A stretch of 31,738 nt of DNA from a virus, in IMG/VR virus record IMGVR_UViG_3300017917_002535, positions 1 through 31,738 of that record; one strand, given 5' to 3'. Shown piece after piece: positions 1,622-24,970 of this stretch. Under the pieces are notes generated by a model. It was not told the DNA's origin and ran no database searches. It saw only the letters and a list, made by a program, of their open reading frames with translations. The translations under genes were made by a program, and so were the position numbers. Each line of letters begins with the position of its first letter. The first letter of the stretch is position 1.

Positions 1622-4600
1622 ATGGCAAGAAAATCGATACATAATTATATTTTTACACCAGGTGCAGGTGGCGCAGGTACGGTAACAATTCCGGACCCGT
1701 TTAAATTAAGCGACATCTTAATGGTCACCAACGTGACCAGAAACACGGTGATTTATAACTTTGGTGATCCTAGCAGAGGAGGCACTGTTGCGTTCACTAA
1801 CGCACCAAGCGTGTCTCTCACCAGTGCTGCAGGAACATCACTCAGCGATGGGAAGACTGTTTTTACTAACCTTAACAACGGTTACACTACCTTAACACTT
1901 ACCTTTGATACATCATCGCATAATGCTGCTGATGAACTAATGATCTACGTTGAGTCATCAGAACTAAAAGTTCGTCCATATGACTTTGGAATTGACGCCG
2001 TTGAGCGTATGAAAGTTGCTGCTCCACAGAGCTTGATTGACGCAGACTTTGAATATGGTATGCAGCCAACCAAGTGGGTGAGCTTTGCTACCATGAACGA
2101 TATGCCTACTGTGTACGAAGTACCAGGTAGTGATTTACAACTAGGCGGCAACCTAGGCAGCTATGCCACTTTCTTGTCAGGTGGTGCAGGCACATCAGGT
2201 AACCCAGGACACTGGATTGGTAGTCCAGCACAAACACAAATTTTACCTCAGAACCAAGGCTACGAGCCAGCAACCGGCGGCGCAAGTATGGCCGGTCCTC
2301 GTGCGATTCTCAATGGTTACTACATGATCATTGCACAAGGTCAAGCAGGTCAGCCAAACTGTGCAGCTGGTACAACCAGCATCACACACGAGTTGCCAAT
2401 TGTTCCTGCATACGGCGGTATCTATCAGCGTAGCTTTACAGTTCAAAGCACAGCTGGTTGGAGAGAAGGCGACGTTATGTGCGTGGTAGAAATGCCAGGT
2501 GAAGGAACTTCACCTTCTACTGTATTCCCAACCGCAGTTGGTTTAACTGGTAACAGCGTGGTGGCCACAGCAGCCGCAGTAAGAGGTGCTGGTGAGACTA
2601 CACTGACCGCTAACAACACCGCAATTTCTGCTAACGCAATCATCATGGTTGAAACCACACAGTTTGGTGTTTGGGAAGCCATGGCAATTACCGGTGGTGG
2701 TGGTACTGCATCTCTAACAGTGTTACGTAATCTATGGGGAACAAACGCTGCTAACGCAACTATTCCAGCTGGCGCACGTATTCGTCAGTTGTCCGGTAAC
2801 GTTGGCGCTGCACCTGCAGGATCATTCTTCTCCAATGCCAACGTGGAAATCATGCGTGTGGATTCAGTGGATTCACGCAATCAGTTCACAGTTACACGTT
2901 CATGGTTCAACGTTAACGCTAGTCCAACCTTTGGCGCAAACTCAATTGTGTTCAAAGTCAATCACTCAGCAAATATTGCTGCATCACAAATTGATGATGC
3001 AAACATTGAAATCGTTCGTGCTACCACAGTGTCCGCTGGACACATTGGTACTAACCCGTTCACAGTAATTGAGCGTGGTAGATTAGGCACTAAACCACTG
3101 AGTGCAGCAGGTCCTGGTAGTTTGTACGTCAGTTTAACTGGTGCATTCTTTGCAGGTAATACCTCAAGTCCATCTGTGATGATGTATATTCCTCAGCACA
3201 ACATTGGACTGTTCTCTAACAGTAACCTTGGTAACTGTTTTGTAAGCACACTGAACTTTAGTCAAGCAGTGACAGTAAGTAACATTGAAGGTGTGTTTGT
3301 TAACCAAACTAACGATAGAGACTATATCAAGTACTATCCAAAGGTTACTGTTAATCAGTTGCCTGGATATCAACTGAACACAAACGATGCATCGTCAACA
3401 GTGCGTCGTGGTGGTATCTACACTGGCGCAAACCTACAGGTAGCAAACGTTACATCCAACGTTGGCTCTCCAAGTTTGATCACTATTAATACAGTTTATC
3501 AACATGGTTTAACTCCAGGTCAAGCAATTCAAGTGCAACTGCAACATGGTTTGCAGAGTACTGGTCAGTTTGCTAACGTGTTTGAAGGTGGCAGTGGTCA
3601 GTTTGTGATCACCAGCACACCAACACCAAAGAGCTTTACCTACATTGGTAAACCAAACTTGATCGTGCCAGCCATGCACACTGTTGGATCAATTGGCTCA
3701 GGTGGTCAATTGACTGCTAACGTTATCATGTTCCCAACAGGTTTGGTAAAACACCGTCCGTTTGATGGTGGTAACAACATTGGTACAAACACACCAGCAC
3801 ACGGTTACGAGATGACTCGTCAAACCAAGAAATACTTCCGCTATCAGTCTGGTAAAGGCACAATGTTTACCTCTGGTACACAGTTCTGCCCAACATTCCA
3901 ATTGGCTAACCTAGAAGCCAGCGGAACAACAATAGGCAGCACTGTTACTGTAACTACAGAAAACGAACACGGTTTACAAATTGGTGCTAACGTTACCATG
4001 TACGGTGTAAACACCACTGGTTACAACGGTTTCTACCGTGTGGCATCAGTTACAAACAACAACGAGTTCACATTCTTATCTACTCAAGAATTAGGCAGTA
4101 CACAGCCAGTCTGGACCAGAACCAAGATCAGTACAACTGAATATGCTGGTATGAGTTACCCTCGTGTGACAATTACTAACTGGCACGGCAGTAAAGTACG
4201 TTCTGGTATTTTTGATGATCAGAACGGTGTGTTCTATGAATATGATGGTCAACAGTTTTTTGCTGTAAAACGCAGCAGTGCAATTGACCTAGCTGGTCGT
4301 GCAGCAGTTGGTGCTAACAGTAACTATGTCATTGGTAATCAAGACACACGTTTTGTTGATCAAGTGGCAACAGGCGATCAAATTGTTATCAAAGGTATGA
4401 CTCATACCGTAACAGACGTGGTTGACCAAAATCACATGTACATCACACCAGTGTATCGTGGACAGTTTAACGCTCAAGATGCACGTATTTGCCGTGTGAG
4501 TGAAGAACGTACTCCGCAGAAAGCATTTAACTACGATCGTGCAGACGGTACAGGCCCAAGCGGCTATGTAATGGACCTGCGCAAGATGCAGATGATTGGT

Positions 4601-7600
4601 ATTCAGTACACCTGGTACGGTGCTGGATTTGTGGACTACATGATGAGAGCTATTGATGGTCGTATGATTATCCTGCATCGTAGCAAGGGTAACAACATCA
4701 ATGACGAAGCTTACATGCGTACTGGTAACTTGCCAGCACGTTATCAAGCAGTTAACAAAGGTCCTAAGACCTGGACCAGCAAAGCAGTTACCGCAACAGC
4801 AACTGAAATTCAGTTGTACGATGTGAGTGAATTCCCAGCAGCCAATGCTACATACCCTGTGCATGTACAGATTGACAACGAGTTGATCAGTTACACAGGA
4901 GTGTTTACTGCCAACGGAAACATCACAGGCTTGACTCGTGGTGCAACACTAAGCAACTATGTGTTTAACGAAACACGTAGTTTATGGAAAAACAGCAATG
5001 CTGGTACAACCTGGGCAGCACGTGGTATGCCAGCCAACGTTACCTGGAGTTCTCAAGCATTCAATGCTAGAACTGGTACCTGGGTAGCAGTTGCAGGATA
5101 CGGCAGTGCAAGCGATAGATCGGTATACAGTAAAGATGGACACATCTGGCAAGCAGGTGGTAGTTTACCATCTACATCAACCTGGGTAAGCGTTGCATTT
5201 GGTAAATTAAACGGCGTTGATACATTTGTAGCAGTGTCTAACACCAACGGAACAGCATCTGCATATTCACAAGACGATGGCGTAACCTGGACTTCATTAA
5301 CACTGCCAGCAACAGCACAGTGGAGCAATGTGACATTTGGTTTTGATCAGAACAATGTACCAGTGTTTGTGGCAATTGCAGGACTGGGTTCATCATCGGC
5401 TTCTACTGCTTACTTGAAAGTAATTGGTACAGGATGGGTTTCAGGTGGATCATTGCCAACCAGCCAAAACTGGTCTGCAATGGCATTTGGTAAAACCAAT
5501 GCCAACGTTTCACCTGGCGGTAGCGCAGTAAGTGCCAGAGGCAACTACTTCTACGCAGTTGGTGGTGGCGCAAACATGCAAACAGCATCCACTATTAGTG
5601 CATACTCAACTGACGGTGGTGTGACATGGTTCCAGGGTGCTCTAACTGCACCAACTGCTAGCACCGCGTACAGCGCAATTGCATTTGGTAACAACACCTG
5701 GATTGCAGTAGCAGGCGGATTTGGCGGAACTGCTGATGCACTGATTGGATCATATATCCACGGAAACCCTGCGGTTGCTACATGGGCATCAATGACCACT
5801 CCTGCAGGACGCTGGAGAAGCATTGCCTGGGGCCCAATCTATGGTATGAGCCAATCTTCTACACCAAACGTTGGACAAGCAGGACAATGGATGATGGTAA
5901 GTGAAGCCAGCGGAACCGCAGTGGCTTACATAACCAATCCACACTTATTAGGCCCTGGCGTGGCACCAACTTGGTTAGCAGGTGGTACACTAGGATCAAC
6001 AGCACTACCAACAACAGCAACATGGAGTTCTGTGTGCTGGGGTAAAGGCATGTTCACTGCACTGAGTTCTAACCAGTGGCAAGTGGCTATCAGCACATAT
6101 GGTAACGCATGGGCAACCAGCGAACTTACTGTTGCTGCAAACTGGCAGAGTGTTGCAGCAGGCGCTGGCAATCTGGTAATCCCACAGTTTGGTAGCACTG
6201 GTACACAGGTCAGCTACAACGGTGGACGCACATGGCAAGCAGGTGGCGCATTGCCAAGCAGCAGCAACTGGATTGATGTTGCTTATGCTCCACACATGGG
6301 TCGCGGTAATCAAGGTCGCTTTGTTGCTATTAGTAACACCAGCGGCACAGTAAACGCCTATCAGGATGCAGACAATCTTGGTAGCACATGGATTGCAGGT
6401 GGCGCACTACCAGCAACAGCTACATGGACCAGTATTGCATTCACCAATGGCGCATTTGTTGCAGTTGCATCTGGCACACAAACCAGTGCATTCTCTGCAA
6501 ATGCTGGTATCACTTGGACAGGTGTGAACCTACCGAGTAGCAGTAACTGGCAGAGCGTTGCAGCAGGTCTGGTGCCAAGTTTGGCAGCAACCACAGGTAA
6601 CGTGTATGCAGTGGTTGCAGTTAGTTCAACCAGTGGCACAATTGGCGCATACAGTAATGTGGTAATTAACACATCTGGACAGAGTGCATTGAGCCTGTGG
6701 GGCAGCGCAACATTGCCTGTTACTGCTAGCTGGCAAGCAGTTGGTTACGGATATAACATATACGACAACACTGCTCGATTCATTGCAATCTCAGGTACAG
6801 CCGATAACAAGACAGCAATTTCCACAAACGGTGGAGCAACATGGACGCAAGGCGGTAACTTGCCAAGCAGCAGCAACTGGTACAAGGTTGCATATGGTGC
6901 AAACGGTATTTGGGTTGCAATTGCAAACGATCGCAACACATTTGCTGCTTACTCAGTTGATGAAGGTGTAACATGGACTGGCGCTTCATTGCCAACAGCA
7001 TGTAACTGGACTGATGTAATTTATCATCCACAACATCATCACTTTGTGGCAATCAGCGGCGATTCAACTAATGCAAGTGCAAACGTTTCTATCGCTCGCC
7101 CAACAGCAGGTATTGGACAATCACACACTGCTAACGCAGGTGTTAAGGTTGTGAGTGTAAGTGCAAGTCCAGACTTGAATCACTGGGGTAGTGCAATTAT
7201 CATGGACGGTGGATTTACAGTTGACCGTACATACACATTCACATACAACGTGACCAACTTCCAAGTTCAAGGAACTGCTGGTATACCACAAACCATGTTT
7301 ATGATGAGATTGGCACCAACAATTAGTAACAGTATGACAGGCGAACTGGGCGGTAAAGATCTAATCAACCGCGCACAGGTTCTACTGCAAAGTATGTACA
7401 TTAACGTTGGTTCAGCTGCTGCACGTTTCTTGGTACAAGGTATCTTGAACCCAACAAACTTGTTAAATGCAAACTGGCGACCATTGAATGCACCACAAAC
7501 ATTCTTGCAACCAAGCTTCTCGCAGTTCGTTGCTAACTCGTTGGCAGCAAGCCCAGCAGGTGTACGTCAGATCATATTTGATGCAAACACAACTCCAGCT

Positions 7601-7852
7601 GGTGGTCAAGTTCCACAAGGTGCAGGATCTCATGCTGCAACAGGCGGTGAACAATTGTTCTCAATTCCAGTTACCCAGACCAACTCTGGTTTCTTGGATC
7701 TGAGTCAGATCAAGGAAATTACTTCCATGGTACTGCCAGGACAAGGTAGCTATCCAAACGGTAACGAAGTATTGGCAATTAACATTGTTCCAATTACAGC
7801 GGTTGCTTCAAACGTGGACATTCAGTTAACGTTCATCGAATCACAAGCGTAA
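1622..7852 (+). CDS. Giant tail fibre/baseplate protein with beta-propeller-like repeats (2076 aa)
   Basis: ATG start behind an exact late promoter; 2076 residues, the largest gene in the window. The N-terminal ~200 residues (with DADFEYGMQPTKW) resemble a conserved part of large structural proteins of marine T4-like phages (recalled, not searched). The middle is beta-rich and includes a FCCH/Ig-like domain at about residues 764-831 (nt 3911-4114) closely related to an insert in gp13, and possibly a second at about 600-680. Residues ~1120-1820 hold 14 units of 42-63 residues with Asp-box-like cores (S-x-D-x-G-x-T-W) followed by LP...W..VA(F/Y)G, as in BNR/sialidase-type beta-propellers. The C-terminal ~250 residues are non-repetitive and probably the assembly end. 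Probably a host-binding or glycan-binding tail appendage; catalytic sialidase residues were not identified. A strong terminator follows. Confidence 0.85.
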   Translation: MARKSIHNYIFTPGAGGAGTVTIPDPFKLSDILMVTNVTRNTVIYNFGDPSRGGTVAFTNAPSVSLTSAAGTSLSDGKTVFTNLNNGYTTLTLTFDTSSHNAADELMIYVESSELKVRPYDFGIDAVERMKVAAPQSLIDADFEYGMQPTKWVSFATMNDMPTVYEVPGSDLQLGGNLGSYATFLSGGAGTSGNPGHWIGSPAQTQILPQNQGYEPATGGASMAGPRAILNGYYMIIAQGQAGQPNCAAGTTSITHELPIVPAYGGIYQRSFTVQSTAGWREGDVMCVVEMPGEGTSPSTVFPTAVGLTGNSVVATAAAVRGAGETTLTANNTAISANAIIMVETTQFGVWEAMAITGGGGTASLTVLRNLWGTNAANATIPAGARIRQLSGNVGAAPAGSFFSNANVEIMRVDSVDSRNQFTVTRSWFNVNASPTFGANSIVFKVNHSANIAASQIDDANIEIVRATTVSAGHIGTNPFTVIERGRLGTKPLSAAGPGSLYVSLTGAFFAGNTSSPSVMMYIPQHNIGLFSNSNLGNCFVSTLNFSQAVTVSNIEGVFVNQTNDRDYIKYYPKVTVNQLPGYQLNTNDASSTVRRGGIYTGANLQVANVTSNVGSPSLITINTVYQHGLTPGQAIQVQLQHGLQSTGQFANVFEGGSGQFVITSTPTPKSFTYIGKPNLIVPAMHTVGSIGSGGQLTANVIMFPTGLVKHRPFDGGNNIGTNTPAHGYEMTRQTKKYFRYQSGKGTMFTSGTQFCPTFQLANLEASGTTIGSTVTVTTENEHGLQIGANVTMYGVNTTGYNGFYRVASVTNNNEFTFLSTQELGSTQPVWTRTKISTTEYAGMSYPRVTITNWHGSKVRSGIFDDQNGVFYEYDGQQFFAVKRSSAIDLAGRAAVGANSNYVIGNQDTRFVDQVATGDQIVIKGMTHTVTDVVDQNHMYITPVYRGQFNAQDARICRVSEERTPQKAFNYDRADGTGPSGYVMDLRKMQMIGIQYTWYGAGFVDYMMRAIDGRMIILHRSKGNNINDEAYMRTGNLPARYQAVNKGPKTWTSKAVTATATEIQLYDVSEFPAANATYPVHVQIDNELISYTGVFTANGNITGLTRGATLSNYVFNETRSLWKNSNAGTTWAARGMPANVTWSSQAFNARTGTWVAVAGYGSASDRSVYSKDGHIWQAGGSLPSTSTWVSVAFGKLNGVDTFVAVSNTNGTASAYSQDDGVTWTSLTLPATAQWSNVTFGFDQNNVPVFVAIAGLGSSSASTAYLKVIGTGWVSGGSLPTSQNWSAMAFGKTNANVSPGGSAVSARGNYFYAVGGGANMQTASTISAYSTDGGVTWFQGALTAPTASTAYSAIAFGNNTWIAVAGGFGGTADALIGSYIHGNPAVATWASMTTPAGRWRSIAWGPIYGMSQSSTPNVGQAGQWMMVSEASGTAVAYITNPHLLGPGVAPTWLAGGTLGSTALPTTATWSSVCWGKGMFTALSSNQWQVAISTYGNAWATSELTVAANWQSVAAGAGNLVIPQFGSTGTQVSYNGGRTWQAGGALPSSSNWIDVAYAPHMGRGNQGRFVAISNTSGTVNAYQDADNLGSTWIAGGALPATATWTSIAFTNGAFVAVASGTQTSAFSANAGITWTGVNLPSSSNWQSVAAGLVPSLAATTGNVYAVVAVSSTSGTIGAYSNVVINTSGQSALSLWGSATLPVTASWQAVGYGYNIYDNTARFIAISGTADNKTAISTNGGATWTQGGNLPSSSNWYKVAYGANGIWVAIANDRNTFAAYSVDEGVTWTGASLPTACNWTDVIYHPQHHHFVAISGDSTNASANVSIARPTAGIGQSHTANAGVKVVSVSASPDLNHWGSAIIMDGGFTVDRTYTFTYNVTNFQVQGTAGIPQTMFMMRLAPTISNSMTGELGGKDLINRAQVLLQSMYINVGSAAARFLVQGILNPTNLLNANWRPLNAPQTFLQPSFSQFVANSLAASPAGVRQIIFDANTTPAGGQVPQGAGSHAATGGEQLFSIPVTQTNSGFLDLSQIKEITSMVLPGQGSYPNGNEVLAINIVPITAVASNVDIQLTFIESQA
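4978..7065 (+). repeat. Fourteen Asp-box/BNR-like coding repeats
   Basis: Repeat starts read by eye at about nt 4978, 5115, 5258, 5400, 5590, 5745, 5925, 6085, 6211, 6350, 6487, 6641, 6812 and 6945. The clearest cores are YSTDGGVTW, YSQDDGVTW, YSVDEGVTW, ISTNGGATW and SYNGGRTW; several others are degenerate. Each is followed by a segment such as LPSSSNW..VA. Fourteen units would fit two seven-bladed propellers (inference). Confidence 0.75.
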
Positions 7853-7869
7853 TTGCAGTGTGTACAACC

Positions 7870-7895
7870 AAAAAAGGGCCTCCGGGCCCTTTTTT
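7870..7895 (+). terminator. Strong intrinsic terminator with UUCG-class (UNCG) loop
   Basis: An 11-bp stem pairs 7870-7880 (AAAAAAGGGCC) with 7885-7895 (GGCCCTTTTTT) around the tetraloop TCCG closed by C-G, a stable UNCG loop. The A-tract/U-tract symmetry could also work on the minus strand. It lies 17 bases after the giant fibre gene and just before a late promoter. Confidence 0.93.
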
Positions 7896-7911
7896 GTTAT
7901 CTGCAGATATC

Positions 7912-7919
7912 CATAAATA
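7912..7919 (+). promoter_or_regulatory. Late promoter CATAAATA
   Basis: Seven of eight matches to TATAAATA, 21 bases before the ATG of the 969-aa fibre and 16 bases after the terminator, so it restarts transcription of the fibre segment. Confidence 0.8.
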
Positions 7920-15202: not shown

Positions 15203-15472
15203 ATGCGTATTAAAACTGCTTTGGATTGGGACCGTGTTAGCATTCCGCTAACAAATCAACTGCACTCGTCGCCGTATGCTGCCCAAAAAGATCTTGCTAA
15301 AATGCTAAGAAGCATACAAGGACTGGTGCAAGAACTAAGTATAGAAGAGATTGAGCTGCGAAGATACCAAAAATTCAGCAGTCCAACCAGCCAGCGTTTG
15401 CTTGCTCAAATTAATCAAGCTCTAGACGAGTTTGAAAAATGGTTAATGTTTGCACAACTTTCGCTTGGTTGA
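15203..15472 (+). CDS. Small helical protein of unknown function (89 aa), probably early
   Basis: I do not recognise it. The chosen start is the ATG at 15203 (MRIKTALDW); the in-frame GTG at 15197 lies next to the -10 and would be upstream of the expected transcript start. The body is strongly helical (SPYAAQKDLAKMLRSIQGLV, EEIELRRYQKF, RLLAQINQALDEFEKWL) with no Cys pairs or membrane segment, so a small cytoplasmic protein or regulator is possible. Its stop codon TGA lies inside the TTGACA of the next promoter. Its early-type promoter separates it from the late structural genes on both sides and hints at a host-takeover role (inference). Confidence 0.7.
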   Translation: MRIKTALDWDRVSIPLTNQLHSSPYAAQKDLAKMLRSIQGLVQELSIEEIELRRYQKFSSPTSQRLLAQINQALDEFEKWLMFAQLSLG

Positions 15473-15497
15473 CACAATTGCCCATTTATTGTATAAT
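15469..15497 (+). promoter_or_regulatory. Consensus sigma70 promoter TTGACA-N17-TATAAT
   Basis: A perfect -35 (15469-15474) and a perfect -10 (15492-15497) with the optimal 17-base spacer. Predicted start near 15504, giving a ~23-base leader with AGGAG before the ATG at 15527. The -35 contains the TGA stop of the upstream gene. It should be a very strong early promoter. Confidence 0.92.
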
Positions 15498-15526: not shown

Positions 15527-16747
15527 ATGGCTACTGTAGCTAAAAAAACAACTGCAAAAACTGCACCCAAAAAAGGCAACACAGGCAAAACCATAGCCGG
15601 GATAAAGATTGCAAAAAAGAAGCCCACTGTGCGTAGAGCCCATTTGGCTGATGAAAAGTACACAGGCACAGAACCACAGTGGGACACTGAACGTGCGCTG
15701 GCATTTGATGATGCCACATTTGATCATCACCTGCGCCGCAGTTTTACCTATTACAACTATCACTATACCGTTAAGGATCTCAAGTCTGACTTTGTAAAAT
15801 GGTTGCAAGAACAAAAGCATTTTGAAGTTTCAAAAGGTGACCTAAGCAAGGTTATTAAAAGTCGTTGGGTACCGATGACCGCATGCAGCCTGATTGCGGC
15901 ACATGCTGTCGGCATGCCACTCAAACCACGTGCATTGCAGTATCTAGAAACAGCGGTGCGTGATGTTTGTGAGAAGTACGACTACTACAATGAGGAAGAC
16001 GATCAGCCGGTTGTGGCAGAAGACAAGCCGGTGTACAGACAGCCCACTATTCAGGATCGACTGAATGAAAAAACGTCGGCCACCATTGGCGAATTAGAAG
16101 GACACTACGACGACCTCGAACAGATCAAGTTCTATGACTTTCTGGTTGCACAAAATGTTCCGCAAGGACAGTTGGGCAAGATTGAGAAAGTGTACTCTGA
16201 TCGCAAGGCTGAACTAGAACTTGCACAAGCCAAAACAGATGAGCAGGTAACAGAAGGTTACAAGCATCTCAAAGCCGCTGACTTCAAGAAACACTATGCT
16301 TGGTTGGATGAGCTAGCAAAAGCCATTGAACAGTATCGCGGTGTTAAAAAAGCCACCAAGAAAGCTCGTGTAAAGAAGAGCCCTAGCAAGGAAAAGTTGA
16401 TTGCCAAGCTCAAGTATGCCAAGCAAGATACTGTGCTCAAACTGGTTAGTATCAATCCAGTGGACATCATTGGTGCCAGCGAACTGTGGGTTTACAATAC
16501 AAAAACTCGCAAGCTAGGACAGTACATTGCCAGCACCAGTGCAGGGCTTGCTGTAAAAGGCGCCAGCATTGAAAACTACACAGACAAGAGTGTGCAAAAG
16601 ACTCTGCGCAAGCCTGAGCAGCAACTGGCTGAGTTTACAAAAGCAGGCAAGGTGCAATTGCGCAAGTTTATGGACAGTGTAAAAACCACAGAAACACTGC
16701 TAAATGGACGCATTAACGCAGATGTGATACTGCTTCGAGTGCAATAA
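15527..16747 (+). CDS. Lys-rich early protein of unknown function (406 aa)
   Basis: ATG 5-6 bases after AGGAG behind a perfect sigma70 consensus promoter, so strong early expression is expected. I do not recognise a domain. The first ~36 residues are Ala/Lys/Thr/Pro-rich (KKTTAKTAPKK, AKKKPTVRR), like histone-H1 tails or nucleic-acid-binding linkers; another basic stretch occurs near residues 275-290 (KKATKKARVKKSPSK). Between them are aromatic and helical segments (FTYYNYHYTVKDLKSDFVKWL; GDLSKVIKSRWVPMTACSLIAAHAVG) and an acidic patch (YNEEDDQ). The C-terminal third is mixed alpha/beta. A DNA- or RNA-binding protein acting early on host or phage nucleic acid is a reasonable guess, not a demonstrated function. 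A terminator with an embedded late promoter follows. Confidence 0.85.
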   Translation: MATVAKKTTAKTAPKKGNTGKTIAGIKIAKKKPTVRRAHLADEKYTGTEPQWDTERALAFDDATFDHHLRRSFTYYNYHYTVKDLKSDFVKWLQEQKHFEVSKGDLSKVIKSRWVPMTACSLIAAHAVGMPLKPRALQYLETAVRDVCEKYDYYNEEDDQPVVAEDKPVYRQPTIQDRLNEKTSATIGELEGHYDDLEQIKFYDFLVAQNVPQGQLGKIEKVYSDRKAELELAQAKTDEQVTEGYKHLKAADFKKHYAWLDELAKAIEQYRGVKKATKKARVKKSPSKEKLIAKLKYAKQDTVLKLVSINPVDIIGASELWVYNTKTRKLGQYIASTSAGLAVKGASIENYTDKSVQKTLRKPEQQLAEFTKAGKVQLRKFMDSVKTTETLLNGRINADVILLRVQ

Positions 16748-16762
16748 TCCAAGTTAGTACCC

Positions 16763-16800
16763 AAACCCCTGATTGCATAAATACTGCAACAGGGGTTTTT
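16763..16800 (+). terminator. Terminator containing the gp13 late promoter
   Basis: AAACCCCTG (16763-16771) pairs with CAGGGGTTT (16790-16798); after a one-base bulge (A16772), TTGCA (16773-16777) pairs with TGCAA (16785-16789); the loop is TAAATAC (16778-16784) and a T-run occupies 16796-16800. It should stop early transcripts of the 406-aa gene. The late promoter lies in the upper stem and loop, and the 3' arm supplies AGGGG, the ribosome site of gp13. Confidence 0.88.
16776..16783 (+). promoter_or_regulatory. Late promoter CATAAATA inside the terminator loop
   Basis: Seven of eight matches to TATAAATA, 19 bases before the gp13 ATG. With T4-like spacing the transcript would start near 16789, inside the descending arm, so late RNA lacks the 5' arm, cannot form the terminator, and leads with AGGGG (16791-16795) 7 bases before ATG. 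Confidence 0.82.
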
Positions 16801-16802
16801 CT

Positions 16803-17936
16803 ATGGCCGTTATAAAATCAGGACTGAACTACAAACAAGCATTGGTGCCCGAAAGTCTGGGCGGCCCAGGTCCTATTGCGTTTGACGAAACGCAGTACGA
16901 TAGCGTTGCACTAAAACGCAAAGAAATTGAAGACTATATTCGCTATCGTTTGGGCGATGGCATGATTGATGTAGAACTGGATCCAGAGCACTACAAGGTT
17001 GCAATTGATCGTGCAATGTTGCGCTATAGACAGCGAGCTGGCAACGGTGAAGAAGAAAGTTTTGCATTCCTAGAACTATTGCCGGAAACGCAAGAGTACA
17101 TTCTACCGCAGGAAGTAATGACTGTGCGCCAAGTGTTCCGCAGAGGTATTGGTAGTGTAACAGGTACCACAGCCAGTCAATTTGAACCATTTGCATCAGG
17201 CTACTTGAACACATACATGCTGGTAGCAGGGCGTGTGGGCGGCTTGGTTAACTACGAACTGTTCAGCCAATACCAAGAGTTGGCCATGCGCATGTTTGGT
17301 GGTTACATGAACTTCACTTGGAATCCAATGAGCAAAAAGCTCACATTAATTCGCAAGATGCCTGAAACAGGACACACTTACAAACGTATTCAGAGTCTAA
17401 CTGCCAGTGGGACAACAGCGGGCAGCACTATCACAGTGACCATGACCGAACCGTGGACGCAGGTGGTAGAAGGTGGAGTATTGGTAATTACCAATTGTCC
17501 AGTCACTGGTTACAACAATGCCTATGAAGTGATCACTCGTAACGAAACAGCCACAGTGTTCACAGTTGAAGCTGCATCTGCACTGGGCAGCACTTTAGTA
17601 CAAGAAACCAATCTGTCACGCACACAGGTGTACAGTCCAGCAACGGATGAGCCAGCTGAAACAGTACTATTGCAGATCTACAATAAAAAGCCAGACAGTA
17701 TGTTGTTAAACGACAGCAGAATTTTTCCATGGCTACAAGACTACGCACTGGCACTGTGCAAGGACATGCTAGGGCAAGCTCGTGAAAAGTTTGCTACTAT
17801 TGCAGGCCCACAGGGCGGCACAACACTAAACGGCGCAGCACTTAAAACTGAAGCCAAGGCAGAAATGGAAGCACTTGAAGAAGAAATCAAACGATTCTTT
17901 GATGGCAGTATGCCTTATACCTGGGTAATTGGATAA
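16803..17936 (+). CDS. 13: Neck protein gp13-like (377 aa) with FCCH/Ig-like insert
   Basis: The ATG at 16803 is chosen over an upstream in-frame GTG at 16773 because it has AGGGG 7 bases upstream and lies behind the late promoter. Residues ~35-190 and ~275-377 follow the gp13 neck family (KRKEIEDYIRYRLGDGMIDVELDPEHYKVAIDRAMLRYRQR; MFGGYMNFTWNP; a helical C-terminus with LPW-like FPWLQDYALALCKDMLGQAR). In T4, gp13 with gp14 seals the portal vertex and mediates tail joining. Residues ~197-275 look like an inserted domain (ASGTTAGSTITV...VTGYNNAYEV...ALGST) closely matching one in the giant fibre at 1622-7852. T4 gp13 is 309 aa; the insert accounts for most of the extra length. TAATG overlap with the next gene implies coupling. 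Confidence 0.85.
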   Translation: MAVIKSGLNYKQALVPESLGGPGPIAFDETQYDSVALKRKEIEDYIRYRLGDGMIDVELDPEHYKVAIDRAMLRYRQRAGNGEEESFAFLELLPETQEYILPQEVMTVRQVFRRGIGSVTGTTASQFEPFASGYLNTYMLVAGRVGGLVNYELFSQYQELAMRMFGGYMNFTWNPMSKKLTLIRKMPETGHTYKRIQSLTASGTTAGSTITVTMTEPWTQVVEGGVLVITNCPVTGYNNAYEVITRNETATVFTVEAASALGSTLVQETNLSRTQVYSPATDEPAETVLLQIYNKKPDSMLLNDSRIFPWLQDYALALCKDMLGQAREKFATIAGPQGGTTLNGAALKTEAKAEMEALEEEIKRFFDGSMPYTWVIG

Positions 17937-18319
17937 TGAAAGTAAATGAAATCATAGTGGAGCGCAACCTCAAAGCAGGTAAAGTTCCCAAGCGATACAA
18001 ACAGGCTAGCACTGGATTGCATACGTTCAGTGACGGCGAAAGAAGTAACACAGATTACACTCATTACCGTTTGGGACTTGCACTGGCAATGAGCGACGGA
18101 AAGAACTCATTGGATATTGATCCTAAAACATTCTACGGCAAAAAACACACTGCGCATCCTTATACACAAGAAGAAGCAGACATGCTCAAACAAGGATACA
18201 AAGCAGTTGGTGCAAACTATAAAGATCTAAACAAAGGCGATCTGTCCAGTACAGAATTGGACAGTACCAACAAGAAAAGTCCAACTGCACCTAAGAAAAA
18301 GAACAAATACGGCGTTTGA
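17936..18319 (+). CDS. Candidate capsid-targeted protein (127 aa), function unknown
   Basis: ATG overlaps the gp13 stop (TAATG). The N-terminus MKVNEIIVE|R places an I-x-E motif at residues 7-9, similar in position and composition to the T4 capsid-targeting sequence (MKTYQEFIAE|A) that the prohead protease gp21 cleaves after I/L-x-E. The rest is basic and polar, with a central segment (TDYTHYRLGLALAMSDGK) and a Lys/Ser/Pro-rich tail (KKSPTAPKKKNKYGV), as expected for a DNA-associated internal protein. No catalytic motif is seen. The stop TGA is embedded in the -35 box of the following promoter. The capsid role is inference. Confidence 0.78.
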   Translation: MKVNEIIVERNLKAGKVPKRYKQASTGLHTFSDGERSNTDYTHYRLGLALAMSDGKNSLDIDPKTFYGKKHTAHPYTQEEADMLKQGYKAVGANYKDLNKGDLSSTELDSTNKKSPTAPKKKNKYGV

Positions 18320-18344
18320 CATTTGCCGTTTAATTGTGTAAACT
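18316..18344 (+). promoter_or_regulatory. Sigma70-type promoter TTGACA-N17-TAAACT
   Basis: Perfect -35 (18316-18321), 17-base spacer, and -10 TAAACT (18339-18344). Predicted start near 18351. Bases 18317-18319 are also the TGA stop of the upstream gene. It gives the kinase its own early expression within a late cluster. Confidence 0.82.
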
Positions 18345-18370
18345 AGCCTCTATACACTAGGGGCTTTTTT
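18345..18370 (+). terminator. Weak terminator hairpin; 3' arm doubles as kinase ribosome site
   Basis: AGCCTC (18345-18350) pairs with GGGGCT (18360-18365) with one U-G pair around a 9-base loop, followed by a T-run (18365-18370) ending at the kinase ATG. Late read-through from gp13 would form it; an early transcript starting near 18351 lacks the 5' arm and keeps AGGGG (18359-18363) as ribosome site 7 bases from ATG. The stem is short, so efficiency is uncertain. Confidence 0.6.
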
Positions 18371-19036
18371 ATGATCATTGGCATTTGCGGATTCATTGGC
18401 AGCGGCAAAGACACTGCCGCAGACTACTTGGTAGGCTTTCATGGTTTTAGACGAGACAGTTTTGCAGGCACCCTAAAGGATGCAGTAAGCGCAGTGTTTG
18501 GCTGGGATAGGGAACTGATCGAAGGCCGTACTCTTGAAGCCCGTGCTTGGCGTGAACAAGTGGACACTTGGTGGGCACAAAGACTAAACATGCCAAATCT
18601 TACTCCACGATGGATTCTACAACACTGGGGTACAGAAGTATGCCGTAACAGTTTTCATGACGATATCTGGATTGCAGCATTACAGTCTAGACTAGCACGT
18701 CGCAGCGATCACACTGTTATTAGCGATGTACGTTTTCCTAATGAAATCAAAGCCATCAAAGAACAAGGTGGTCGCATTGTTTGGATACAGCGTGGCGAAT
18801 TGCCCAGCTGGCACATCATGGCTGCTAAAGCCAATGCAGGTGATGTAGTTGCTCAAACAAAACTAACCGAGCTGGGTATCCATGCAAGTGAAACCAGTTG
18901 GGTTGGGACTGATTTTGATGCGATTATCGACAATAACGGCACTGTAGAACAGCTTTATAACCAGCTTAAAACCCTGGTACAGACTCCGCCGGCTTCCACG
19001 GTAAACGTTCTCGATATAGTAATGGCTGGCAGTTAA
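18371..19036 (+). CDS. 1: Deoxynucleoside monophosphate kinase, T4 gp1-like (221 aa)
   Basis: The protein opens with a P-loop, GFIGSGKDT at residues 7-15 (K13 and T15 contacting the phosphate), followed by the gp1-family pattern: SFAGTLKDAVSAVFGWDRELIEG, WREQVDTWW, TPRWILQHWGTEVCRNSFHDDIWI and the strand HTVISDVRFPNE. The enzyme phosphorylates dNMPs to dNDPs in the cytoplasm, supplying phage DNA synthesis. Length is normal for the family (T4 gp1 is 241 aa). It has its own sigma70-type promoter, in keeping with early need, although it lies among late virion genes. The last ~24 codons overlap the convergent HNH-like gene by 71 bases. Confidence 0.9.
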   Translation: MIIGICGFIGSGKDTAADYLVGFHGFRRDSFAGTLKDAVSAVFGWDRELIEGRTLEARAWREQVDTWWAQRLNMPNLTPRWILQHWGTEVCRNSFHDDIWIAALQSRLARRSDHTVISDVRFPNEIKAIKEQGGRIVWIQRGELPSWHIMAAKANAGDVVAQTKLTELGIHASETSWVGTDFDAIIDNNGTVEQLYNQLKTLVQTPPASTVNVLDIVMAGS

Positions 19037-22797: not shown

Positions 22798-23418
22798 ATG
22801 TCCGTAGCAAGTTTAACAAGATTTACAGTACCACTGGCAAGTGATCAAAGTGCAAGCGCACAAGGTCTATTGATGCCAAAACTGGCTTACCGCTTTCGTG
22901 TAAGCTTCGAACAGTTTGGTGTAAGTCAGCCAGTAACTGAATTAACAAAACAAGTCATGGAAGCCAGTCGTCCTAGCGTTACATTTGGCGACATCGTCAT
23001 TGATGCGTATAACAGTAAGATCAAAATGGCTGGTAAACCAGACTGGGGTGATGTCACTGTTAAACTGCGTGATGATGCTGCTGGCAACGTAAGCAAGCTG
23101 GTCGGCGAACAATTGCAGAAGCAATATGACTTCATGGAGCAAGCATCAGCGGCAGCTGGTATCGACTACAAGTTTATCACTCGTTTAGAAATGCTAGATG
23201 GTGGTAACGGTGTTAATCAACCAAACGTACTAGAAGTATGGGAGATGTATGGATGCTACCTACAAGGTGCAAACTACGGAACCGTGAACTACGCTTCTGG
23301 TACTGAAATTGTTACAGTAGATTTAACAATTAAGTATGATAACGCTGTTCAAACACCGTTAGGTTCTGGCATTGGAGCTGATGTTGGTAGACTAAATGGT
23401 GTGACAGCAACTGGCTAA
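22798..23418 (+). CDS. 19: Tail tube protein gp19-like (206 aa)
   Basis: ATG with a strong AAGGAGA site. The protein follows the T4 gp19 tube family: a start leading to LAYRFRVSFEQFG, then TELTKQVMEASRPSVTFGDIVIDAYNSKIKMAGKPDWGDVTVKLRDD, a helix, and a final NVLEVWEMYGCYLQGANYG...VDLTIKYDNAV. Hexamers of it stack to form the tail tube through which DNA passes. Length is close to the family norm (T4 gp19 is 163 aa) with a modest excess. The gene lies directly after the sheath gene, the T4 order, and is followed by a terminator. Confidence 0.93.
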   Translation: MSVASLTRFTVPLASDQSASAQGLLMPKLAYRFRVSFEQFGVSQPVTELTKQVMEASRPSVTFGDIVIDAYNSKIKMAGKPDWGDVTVKLRDDAAGNVSKLVGEQLQKQYDFMEQASAAAGIDYKFITRLEMLDGGNGVNQPNVLEVWEMYGCYLQGANYGTVNYASGTEIVTVDLTIKYDNAVQTPLGSGIGADVGRLNGVTATG

Positions 23419-23437
23419 TACCAGACGAAGCACCTCG

Positions 23438-23464
23438 AAGCCCAGCTTATAACTGGGCTTTTTT
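23438..23464 (+). terminator. Intrinsic terminator after the tube gene
   Basis: AAGCCCAG (23438-23445) pairs with CTGGGCTT (23453-23460) around a 7-base loop, followed by a T-run through 23464. A late promoter starts 5 bases later. Confidence 0.9.
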
Positions 23465-23468
23465 ATGG

Positions 23469-23476
23469 CATAAATA
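23469..23476 (+). promoter_or_regulatory. Late promoter CATAAATA
   Basis: Seven of eight matches to TATAAATA, 18 bases before the ATG at 23495. Together with the terminator it insulates tube expression from the next operon. Confidence 0.82.
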
Positions 23477-23494: not shown

Positions 23495-24970
23495 ATGTCT
23501 CTAAATGGATTCTTAGGCGAAGTAACACAAGAAGGCACAGTACGTGACTACCAACACGCCAGCCGTATTTTTAGAATAGATAACTTTAGGTTTTCACCTA
23601 AGCTCAGTTTTTTATTCTATGTTCGCATCAATTTGAACCCAGAGTTTACTCTGTTCATGGGGGAGAGTCCAGGTGTGATTGGCTCGTTGGTTAAAACAGT
23701 GAACTTGCCAAAGTTCACCATGGATGTGCGCACACTGAATGCCTACAACAGACCTAACTTGGCCACAACCAAGATCAAGTATGATCCAGTGACCATGAAG
23801 TTCCACGATGATGGCGCAGACATTGTTAGACAGTTCTGGATTGATTACTACAGCTATCATTTTAGAGACACAGACCACTCCAGTGGTTTATACAATGCTC
23901 CACACAAATACGAACCTCGTCCAACAGATCGTTGGGGCTATACATTAAGACAATCGTACGGTGGTGGTGGTCCTAGCACTATGCAAACACGAACAAACTT
24001 GATTGATAGTATTCAGATCTTTTCATTCAATCAGAAAAAATTCAGTGAGTGTACATTACATAATCCTATAATCTCATCGTTCCAACACGGTGATCATGAC
24101 CATGCCAATGGAACCGGTGTGCTAGAACACACCATGACAGTGAACTACGAAAATGTCAGCTATGCAACTGGCTGGTGTACAGAATCAAACTTTGGATCAG
24201 ACATGTTGTTGTACTACGATGCCAGTCCTAGTATTCTTACTCCGTTGTTTGCACTAGGTGCAGTTGGCGGAACACCACGCACAAATGTAACACAGGATGA
24301 ATACGGTAGACCAGTTGAAGTCAGTGACGAAACCACTTACTATAGAGGCGGCCAAGAGTATAGTGGCGACACTTCCAACTCTGGCGGTGATTGGTCTGTA
24401 TCGGGTGTTGCTAACAAGGTTAGTGGATTCTTCAGCGGCGGACAGAACAGTGCATTTAGTAAAGCAACCAGCAGCATTGTTGGCGCTGCATTACAGAGTG
24501 CAATACGAGGTAGAAATCCATTGAGCGCATTTGGTGCACCAACAGTGACTAACCTATTGTATCAGGCAGGTGGTGCAGTTGGTGGCGCAGCAGGACAAAA
24601 ATTAATTGCTGCCGGGGGATTGATCAAAGCAGGCCAGACCATCGGCAAAGGCGGAGTTGGTCCGGGCAACTTAGGCACAGTGGCAGTGGCCATTAGATCA
24701 GCATCTATTCTAACTGGCGTAAGACCACAGGACATATTCAGTAGAGGGCCAGGCAAGTCTGCAACTACCAACGGACAATCAGTTGCACGTTCTGGTAATG
24801 ACTCAGTTACCTATTCAAGTGCGCCAAACTTTCCTTCTGCTAGACCTACATCTGCTGTGGAAACCAGCAAGCAAGGTATATTCTCTACTCCAAGCTACAG
24901 TGATGGTCCGTCAACCATTAATGATTCAAGAGACTCTTACCCAGACAGTAATCAAGGATACATGGCATAA
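23495..24970 (+). CDS. Tail-tube-fold protein, gp48/gp54- or gp19-like (491 aa)
   Basis: ATG behind a late promoter with AGGA upstream. Residues ~20-255 show the tube-type fold: FSPKLSFLFYVRINLNPEF, a segment like T4 gp54 (VKTVNLPKFTMDVRTLNAYNRPNLATTKIKYDPVTMKFHDD), SIQIFSFNQKKFSECTLHNPIISSF and HTMTVNYENVSYATG. In T4, gp48 and gp54 are baseplate proteins that start tube assembly and share this fold with gp19. The C-terminal ~230 residues are Gly/Ser/Ala-rich and disordered or helical, reminiscent of membrane-active or linker regions. Which T4 equivalent it is cannot be settled by eye. TAATG overlap with the next gene indicates coupling. Confidence 0.75.
   Translation: MSLNGFLGEVTQEGTVRDYQHASRIFRIDNFRFSPKLSFLFYVRINLNPEFTLFMGESPGVIGSLVKTVNLPKFTMDVRTLNAYNRPNLATTKIKYDPVTMKFHDDGADIVRQFWIDYYSYHFRDTDHSSGLYNAPHKYEPRPTDRWGYTLRQSYGGGGPSTMQTRTNLIDSIQIFSFNQKKFSECTLHNPIISSFQHGDHDHANGTGVLEHTMTVNYENVSYATGWCTESNFGSDMLLYYDASPSILTPLFALGAVGGTPRTNVTQDEYGRPVEVSDETTYYRGGQEYSGDTSNSGGDWSVSGVANKVSGFFSGGQNSAFSKATSSIVGAALQSAIRGRNPLSAFGAPTVTNLLYQAGGAVGGAAGQKLIAAGGLIKAGQTIGKGGVGPGNLGTVAVAIRSASILTGVRPQDIFSRGPGKSATTNGQSVARSGNDSVTYSSAPNFPSARPTSAVETSKQGIFSTPSYSDGPSTINDSRDSYPDSNQGYMA

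Follow-up and report, generated by a model that had tools for sequence, protein, structure and literature searches.

A late-promoter box between the arms of a hairpin

Why should a late-promoter box lie between the two arms of a hairpin whose 3′ arm carries the ribosome-binding site of the next gene, and what would this arrangement do to that gene early and late in infection? We addressed this question in a 31,738-base IMG/VR virus fragment (IMGVR_UViG_3300017917_002535; hereafter the window), which contains the myovirus genes for neck, sheath, tube and head-closure proteins. The genes and elements of the gp13 and dNMP kinase regions described below lie on its + strand. The gene of interest (16803–17936), with its ATG at 16803, is presumed to be late and encodes a gp13-like neck protein, or head–tail adaptor Ad2 (phrog_211, E 6.5e-33; relatives are annotated as neck protein). 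The gene for deoxynucleoside monophosphate kinase (dNMP kinase; 18371–19036; phrog_139, E 2e-54) is presumed to be early. Judged by the gp13 protein, the nearest named relatives are jumbo phages, for example, Atu_ph07, XaC1, PA5oct, Munch, GAP32, CBB and 121Q, and the gene order gp13–dNMP kinase–tail sheath is common to several named jumbo relatives. A near-identity DNA search of phage records returned no match to the window, and an exact-match search of IMG/VR returned no copy of the hairpin element. Elsewhere in the window, 1622–7852 encodes a 2076-amino acid protein with BNR/Asp-box repeats, and tail-tube families are matched by two adjacent genes, 22798–23418 and 23495–24970, of which the second exceeds twice the length of the first.

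The hairpin (16763–16798) lies directly 5′ of the gp13-like gene and folds into 9 bp, a bulge and 5 bp. Its 5′ arm comprises the lower-stem strand AAACCCCTG (16763–16771), which is the anti-Shine–Dalgarno side and is defined by the fold and by covariation, followed by the bulged A16772 and the upper-stem strand TTGCA (16773–16777; fold). The loop is TAAATAC (16778–16784). The 3′ arm (16785–16798), assigned from the fold and from a partner-swap test (see below), consists of the upper-stem strand TGCAA (16785–16789) and the lower-stem strand CAGGGGTTT (16790–16798). Within this arm lies AGGGG (16791–16795), the Shine–Dalgarno site of gp13 as judged from its opening cost and from the paired core Gs in relatives; an earlier reading made from the sequence alone (the sequence-only reading) had placed it 7 nt before the gp13 ATG, which was borne out. 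A terminator-like tail of five Ts follows (16796–16800). The same reading had placed the late box, CATAAATA (16776–16783), across the upper stem and the loop; TAAATA does lie in the loop, whereas the upper stem holds only the CA of the box.

The predicted folding energy of the hairpin was −19.4 kcal/mol (z −3.3), which none of 200 shuffles equalled. When TAAATA was kept fixed and both flanks were dinucleotide-shuffled, 26 of 5000 shuffles paired equally well (p ~0.005, for the window alone). Of all 17 scored TAAATA sites of the window, the one at gp13 also had, by a wide margin, the strongest flanking pairing (−21.9; next, −14.6).

Conservation and covariation in relatives

Relatives were gathered with gp13 peptide patterns alone, and the hairpin played no part in their selection. 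Across 59 distinct upstream regions, the pairing of a region's own arms across TAAATA averaged −16.3 kcal/mol, compared with −7.9 kcal/mol when partners were swapped between regions. The sequence-only reading had proposed a search of related genomes for hairpins with TAAATA in the loop; the relatives showed paired arms around TAAATA, and 44 of the 59 passed a shuffle test (equalled by no more than 5 of 200 shuffles). The 15 of 59 that failed it were mostly more distant relatives, including PA5oct, Atu_ph07 and Phosso, and the strong hairpin is mostly missing in the most distant ones. Retention of gp13 with loss of the pairing, which that reading had named as evidence against its proposal, was seen only among more distant relatives. 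GAP32 and XaC1 differ in having the box in the 5′ arm and not in the loop.

Base pairs were counted in 43 relatives with a clear hairpin, which were picked by eye and chosen because they fold. Because MAFFT did not align the arms of these 43 leaders correctly, pairs were counted in each fold relative to the GG of the Shine–Dalgarno site. TAAATA was invariant in 43/43 aligned relatives, and both core Gs of the Shine–Dalgarno site were paired in all 43, at 7–11 nt 5′ of the ATG. By contrast, the pairs surrounding this core occurred in up to six types, with G–T pairs tolerated. On the gp13 protein tree, at offsets −8 to −1 and +2 to +5, the 5′ base of a pair changed 6–16 times and the 3′ base 5–15 times, the two changing nearly in step. 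As judged from these 43 sequences, the box is constant, the arms drift jointly and the ribosome site always lies in one arm. In the light of this comparison between relatives, a chance origin of the hairpin around TAAATA is untenable. Fold, window shuffles and relatives all agree that the nested element of hairpin and late box, as first described, is real.

The box as a late promoter

T4 late boxes span −13 to −6, and phage Aeh1 uses CTAAATA (PMC1524935). Since the T4 rule places the box at −13 to −6, the predicted late RNA start is 16789, in the descending arm. The sequence-only reading had put late initiation near 16789; the position of the box agrees with it, and the start itself is a prediction. 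We assigned the box as a T4-type late promoter from this rule, from its invariance and from the over-representation of its core. In a close relative with a 355-kb genome (G001), TAAATA occurs at −50 to −12 of 53 out of 375 ORFs, compared with an average of 16 for permuted motifs, and the reverse complement occurs there only 7 times. In the window, 9 of 31 ORFs have TAAATA in this interval. The 355-kb relative encodes a gp55-type late sigma factor (phrog_12791, E 2e-71), from which we know the late sigma, the window being a fragment without that gene; a search with the T4 gp55 protein gave weak matches in five other records.

An invariant loop on a drifting stem is also what many protein-bound hairpins look like, and TAAATA might accordingly be an RNA loop motif for a phage repressor, with the hairpin serving as a protein operator on gp13 mRNA and no promoter being involved. 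This we regard as highly improbable, given that TAAATA stands upstream of many other ORFs that have no hairpin, that it is enriched on the sense strand only (53 occurrences in the 355-kb relative, versus 7 of the reverse complement), and that it agrees with the late box known from T4-like phages, with a late sigma gene present. Alternatively, the inverted repeat, with the box at its centre, might act as DNA, binding a dimeric protein as an operator of the late promoter, the RNA pairing then being incidental. Here, too, the chances seem very slim: the repeat is missing at almost all other TAAATA sites, the 3′ arm always contains the Shine–Dalgarno core, and the arms tolerate G–T pairs and lack the sequence conservation expected of a protein site.

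Predicted hiding and freeing of the ribosome site

The switch requires a source of early RNA that reads into gp13. Upstream of the hairpin lies an early-type sigma70 promoter, TTGACA-17-TATAAT (15469–15497), a perfect 12/12 match at the place from which the sequence-only reading had derived its early RNA, followed by a 406-amino acid gene (15527–16747; phrog_11903) that is presumed to be early and to be the source of the read-through RNA. A homologue of this gene stands directly 5′ of gp13 in most relatives, and the early-type unit of promoter and 406-amino acid gene, co-directional with gp13, is conserved in most close relatives; the promoter at the same place scores 11–12/12 in most of them, and TAAATA is absent there.

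RNA from the early promoter that reads into gp13 would carry both arms, so that the Shine–Dalgarno site would be base-paired and gp13 would stay untranslated; in this phage, the T5-tailed hairpin would probably also end part of this RNA. At late times, polymerase carrying the gp55-type sigma would recognize TAAATA between the arms and start near 16789 in the descending arm. The lower-stem 5′ arm (16763–16771) would be missing from such late RNA, which would have ACAGGGG at its 5′ end, 14 nt upstream of the ATG, and would be translated. In folding predictions, opening AGGGG costs 12.0 kcal/mol in the read-through RNA, where it is essentially never free, compared with 2.7 kcal/mol in RNA from 16789 (2.6–2.9 kcal/mol for starts at 16786–16791). 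Two further points count against the switch. The opening cost in late RNA is above zero, at 2.7 kcal/mol, and the upstream gene ends so close to the hairpin, its stop codon lying only 15 nt away, that a terminating ribosome might disturb the fold.

Resting on the hairpin, the box, the Shine–Dalgarno pairing, the covariation, the upstream early-type promoter and the gp55-family gene in a close relative, all of which are seen directly, an early/late expression switch of the T4 gene e kind at gp13 is in our judgement very probable; its start site, timing, silencing and termination are predictions.

Termination as a probably optional part

The GC-rich stem to 16798 and the T5 tract directly after it (16796–16800) give the window's hairpin the canonical form of an intrinsic terminator. 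We therefore considered whether its chief role is to terminate transcription of the upstream early gene, the overlap with promoter and Shine–Dalgarno site being a consequence of the short intergenic space. A run of at least four Ts also follows the hairpin in 21 of the 43 relatives, and strong terminators precede separate late boxes elsewhere in the window. Yet a terminator has no need of the Shine–Dalgarno core inside its 3′ arm in every relative, and the 22 of 43 without such a T-run, for example, L012, L017, L019 and L051, keep the hairpin, the box and the paired core. Hairpin and T-tract are thus not conserved together among relatives, and the T-run undergoes 13 state changes on the gp13 tree. 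A hairpin that is chiefly a terminator is, on this evidence, unlikely. With only 21 of 43 relatives keeping the T-tract, the constant function would be the hiding of the ribosome site, undone by late initiation, and termination looks like an optional extra that is likely in the window given its T-tract.

The proposal that early RNA both terminates and has its AGGGG hidden therefore fared unevenly: pairing and opening cost support the hiding, whereas the terminator did not hold up as a conserved feature (21/43). Likewise, comparison with relatives strengthened the proposed switch, with its late promoter between the arms, its 3′ arm as Shine–Dalgarno site and its early-type gene upstream, and left the terminator half weaker.

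At two other places in the window, 7869–7919 and 23437–23476, strong terminators are followed closely by separate late boxes, a non-nested alternative to the gp13 arrangement.

A possible mirror element before the dNMP kinase gene

Between a 127-amino acid ORF that follows gp13 and the dNMP kinase gene, an early-type sigma70 promoter, TTGACA-17-TAAACT (18316–18344; promoter match and relatives), is immediately followed by a possible mirror hairpin (18345–18365) whose 3′ arm contains AGGGG (18359–18363), and a T-run extends to 18370; fold, accessibility and relatives point to this element (18345–18370). The predicted early start at ~18351 drops most of the 5′ arm and lowers the opening cost from ~10 to 1.9 kcal/mol. 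An early sigma70 start inside the hairpin would then silence late read-through into dNMP kinase. In the window alone, the mirror element was not significant: with the split made at the predicted start, 2029 of 5000 shuffles did equally well. What supports it is a set of relatives that differ in sequence and fold alike (L001, L031, L039, L043 and L057); it is absent from other relatives. The sigma70 score of the dNMP kinase leaders of relatives averaged 10.0/12, compared with 7.3 in shuffles, and in the 355-kb relative the mirror element was the best paired of 38 sigma70 sites.

The −10 element ends 5–7 nt from the ATG in a further group of dNMP kinase leaders. Two groups can be distinguished among consensus sigma70 promoters, with −10 elements ending either ~19–38 nt or 5–8 nt (mostly 6) before the ATG, in the 355-kb relative (L089–L106) and in a 210-kb relative (L142–L152), and this two-group pattern is also seen among dNMP kinase leaders (L019, L022–L024, L026, L027, L032, L037 and L041). 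For genes of the group with the shorter distance, leaderless early mRNA is predicted.

These features raise the tentative possibility, which we hold to be somewhat less probable than its opposite, of two-way insulation between alternating early and late genes on the same strand: a late promoter in a hairpin at gp13 and an early sigma70 promoter in a hairpin at dNMP kinase, each of which would hide the ribosome site, and often terminate, in RNA of the wrong class. In some relatives, RNA from the early version would start, leaderless, at an AUG that lies inside the hairpin or at its edge.

Relation to known switches

Read-through RNA from outside hides the transposase start in IS10, IS50 and IS200, and RNA from the promoter of the element itself begins within the hairpin. 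Unlike the gp13 element, these cases involve no temporal sigma switch and belong to mobile elements. The closest precedents are in T4. According to two reviews (PMC3014915, PMC2988022), the late promoters of e, soc, 49 and I-TevI lie in the DNA of the hairpin's 5′ part, early and middle read-through RNA hides the Shine–Dalgarno site, and late RNA without the 5′ strand is translated; I-TevII is likewise described as a switch of the promoter-in-hairpin type (PMC2988022). The gp13 element shares with e, soc, 49 and I-TevI a late box, a hairpin over the Shine–Dalgarno site and late RNA without the 5′ arm, the last of these being predicted here, and it has every sequence feature of a T4-type switch that we tested. 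It differs in that it controls a neck gene for virion assembly, in jumbo phages, with the box in the central loop, in that the window and about half of the relatives have a canonical T-tract in addition, and in that it is known from sequence alone.

Late promoters with hairpins over the ribosome site are also described, in PMC2988022, for the homing-endonuclease genes mobE (phage Aeh1) and segB, an arrangement in common with ours. As given there, mobE also has an internal intrinsic terminator, a separate structure in the coding region, whereas here one hairpin could do both jobs. The principle is thus already known from T4; the new aspects are the virion gene in jumbo phages, the central-loop box, the optional fusion with a terminator and the possible mirror element before dNMP kinase. 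In the open-access literature, we found the T4 precedents and no report for this jumbo lineage.

Our results suggest that the promoter-in-hairpin switch, described for a few genes of T4, has been under long selection in jumbo phages, where it is placed on a virion-assembly gene. They also offer a signature with which early-to-late borders can be computed for uncultured phages. Should the mirror form prove real, one simple part would insulate gene classes in both directions.

Selective use at other late boxes

The gp13 element had the strongest arm pairing of the 64 late-box sites in the 355-kb relative, and in the 210-kb relative (G003) it was the strongest of 34 and the only one at p 0.005. 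Hairpins as the general setting of late promoters were rejected, as only 1–5 of the 33–64 sites per genome reach p 0.005.

The second-strongest site in the 355-kb relative, at ~L090:6090–6137 (AAAAAAGCCCTCCTCGGTGTAAATACCAAGGGGGGCTTTCTTATG), is a second example of this design, a terminator-like hairpin whose loop contains TAAATA and whose 3′ arm contains the Shine–Dalgarno site; its 5′ neighbour gene has a sigma70-like promoter and its 3′ gene encodes a protein with an HEMVH motif. In Munch, arms flank TAAATA at gp13, too, and also at an Rz-like spanin gene (L111:17955), the tail sheath gene (L113:1438) and a gene of unknown function (L118:19064); the spanin site did not pass a stricter shuffle test. 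The sheath version is also found in GAP32, 121Q, XaC1 and Kaldavass.

The same scan applied to T4 as a control recovered two known switches, lysozyme e and I-TevII, together with gene 51. At gene 51 (L138:16479), which the consulted portions of the reviews PMC3014915 and PMC2988022 do not name, a hairpin around the late box hides the Shine–Dalgarno site.
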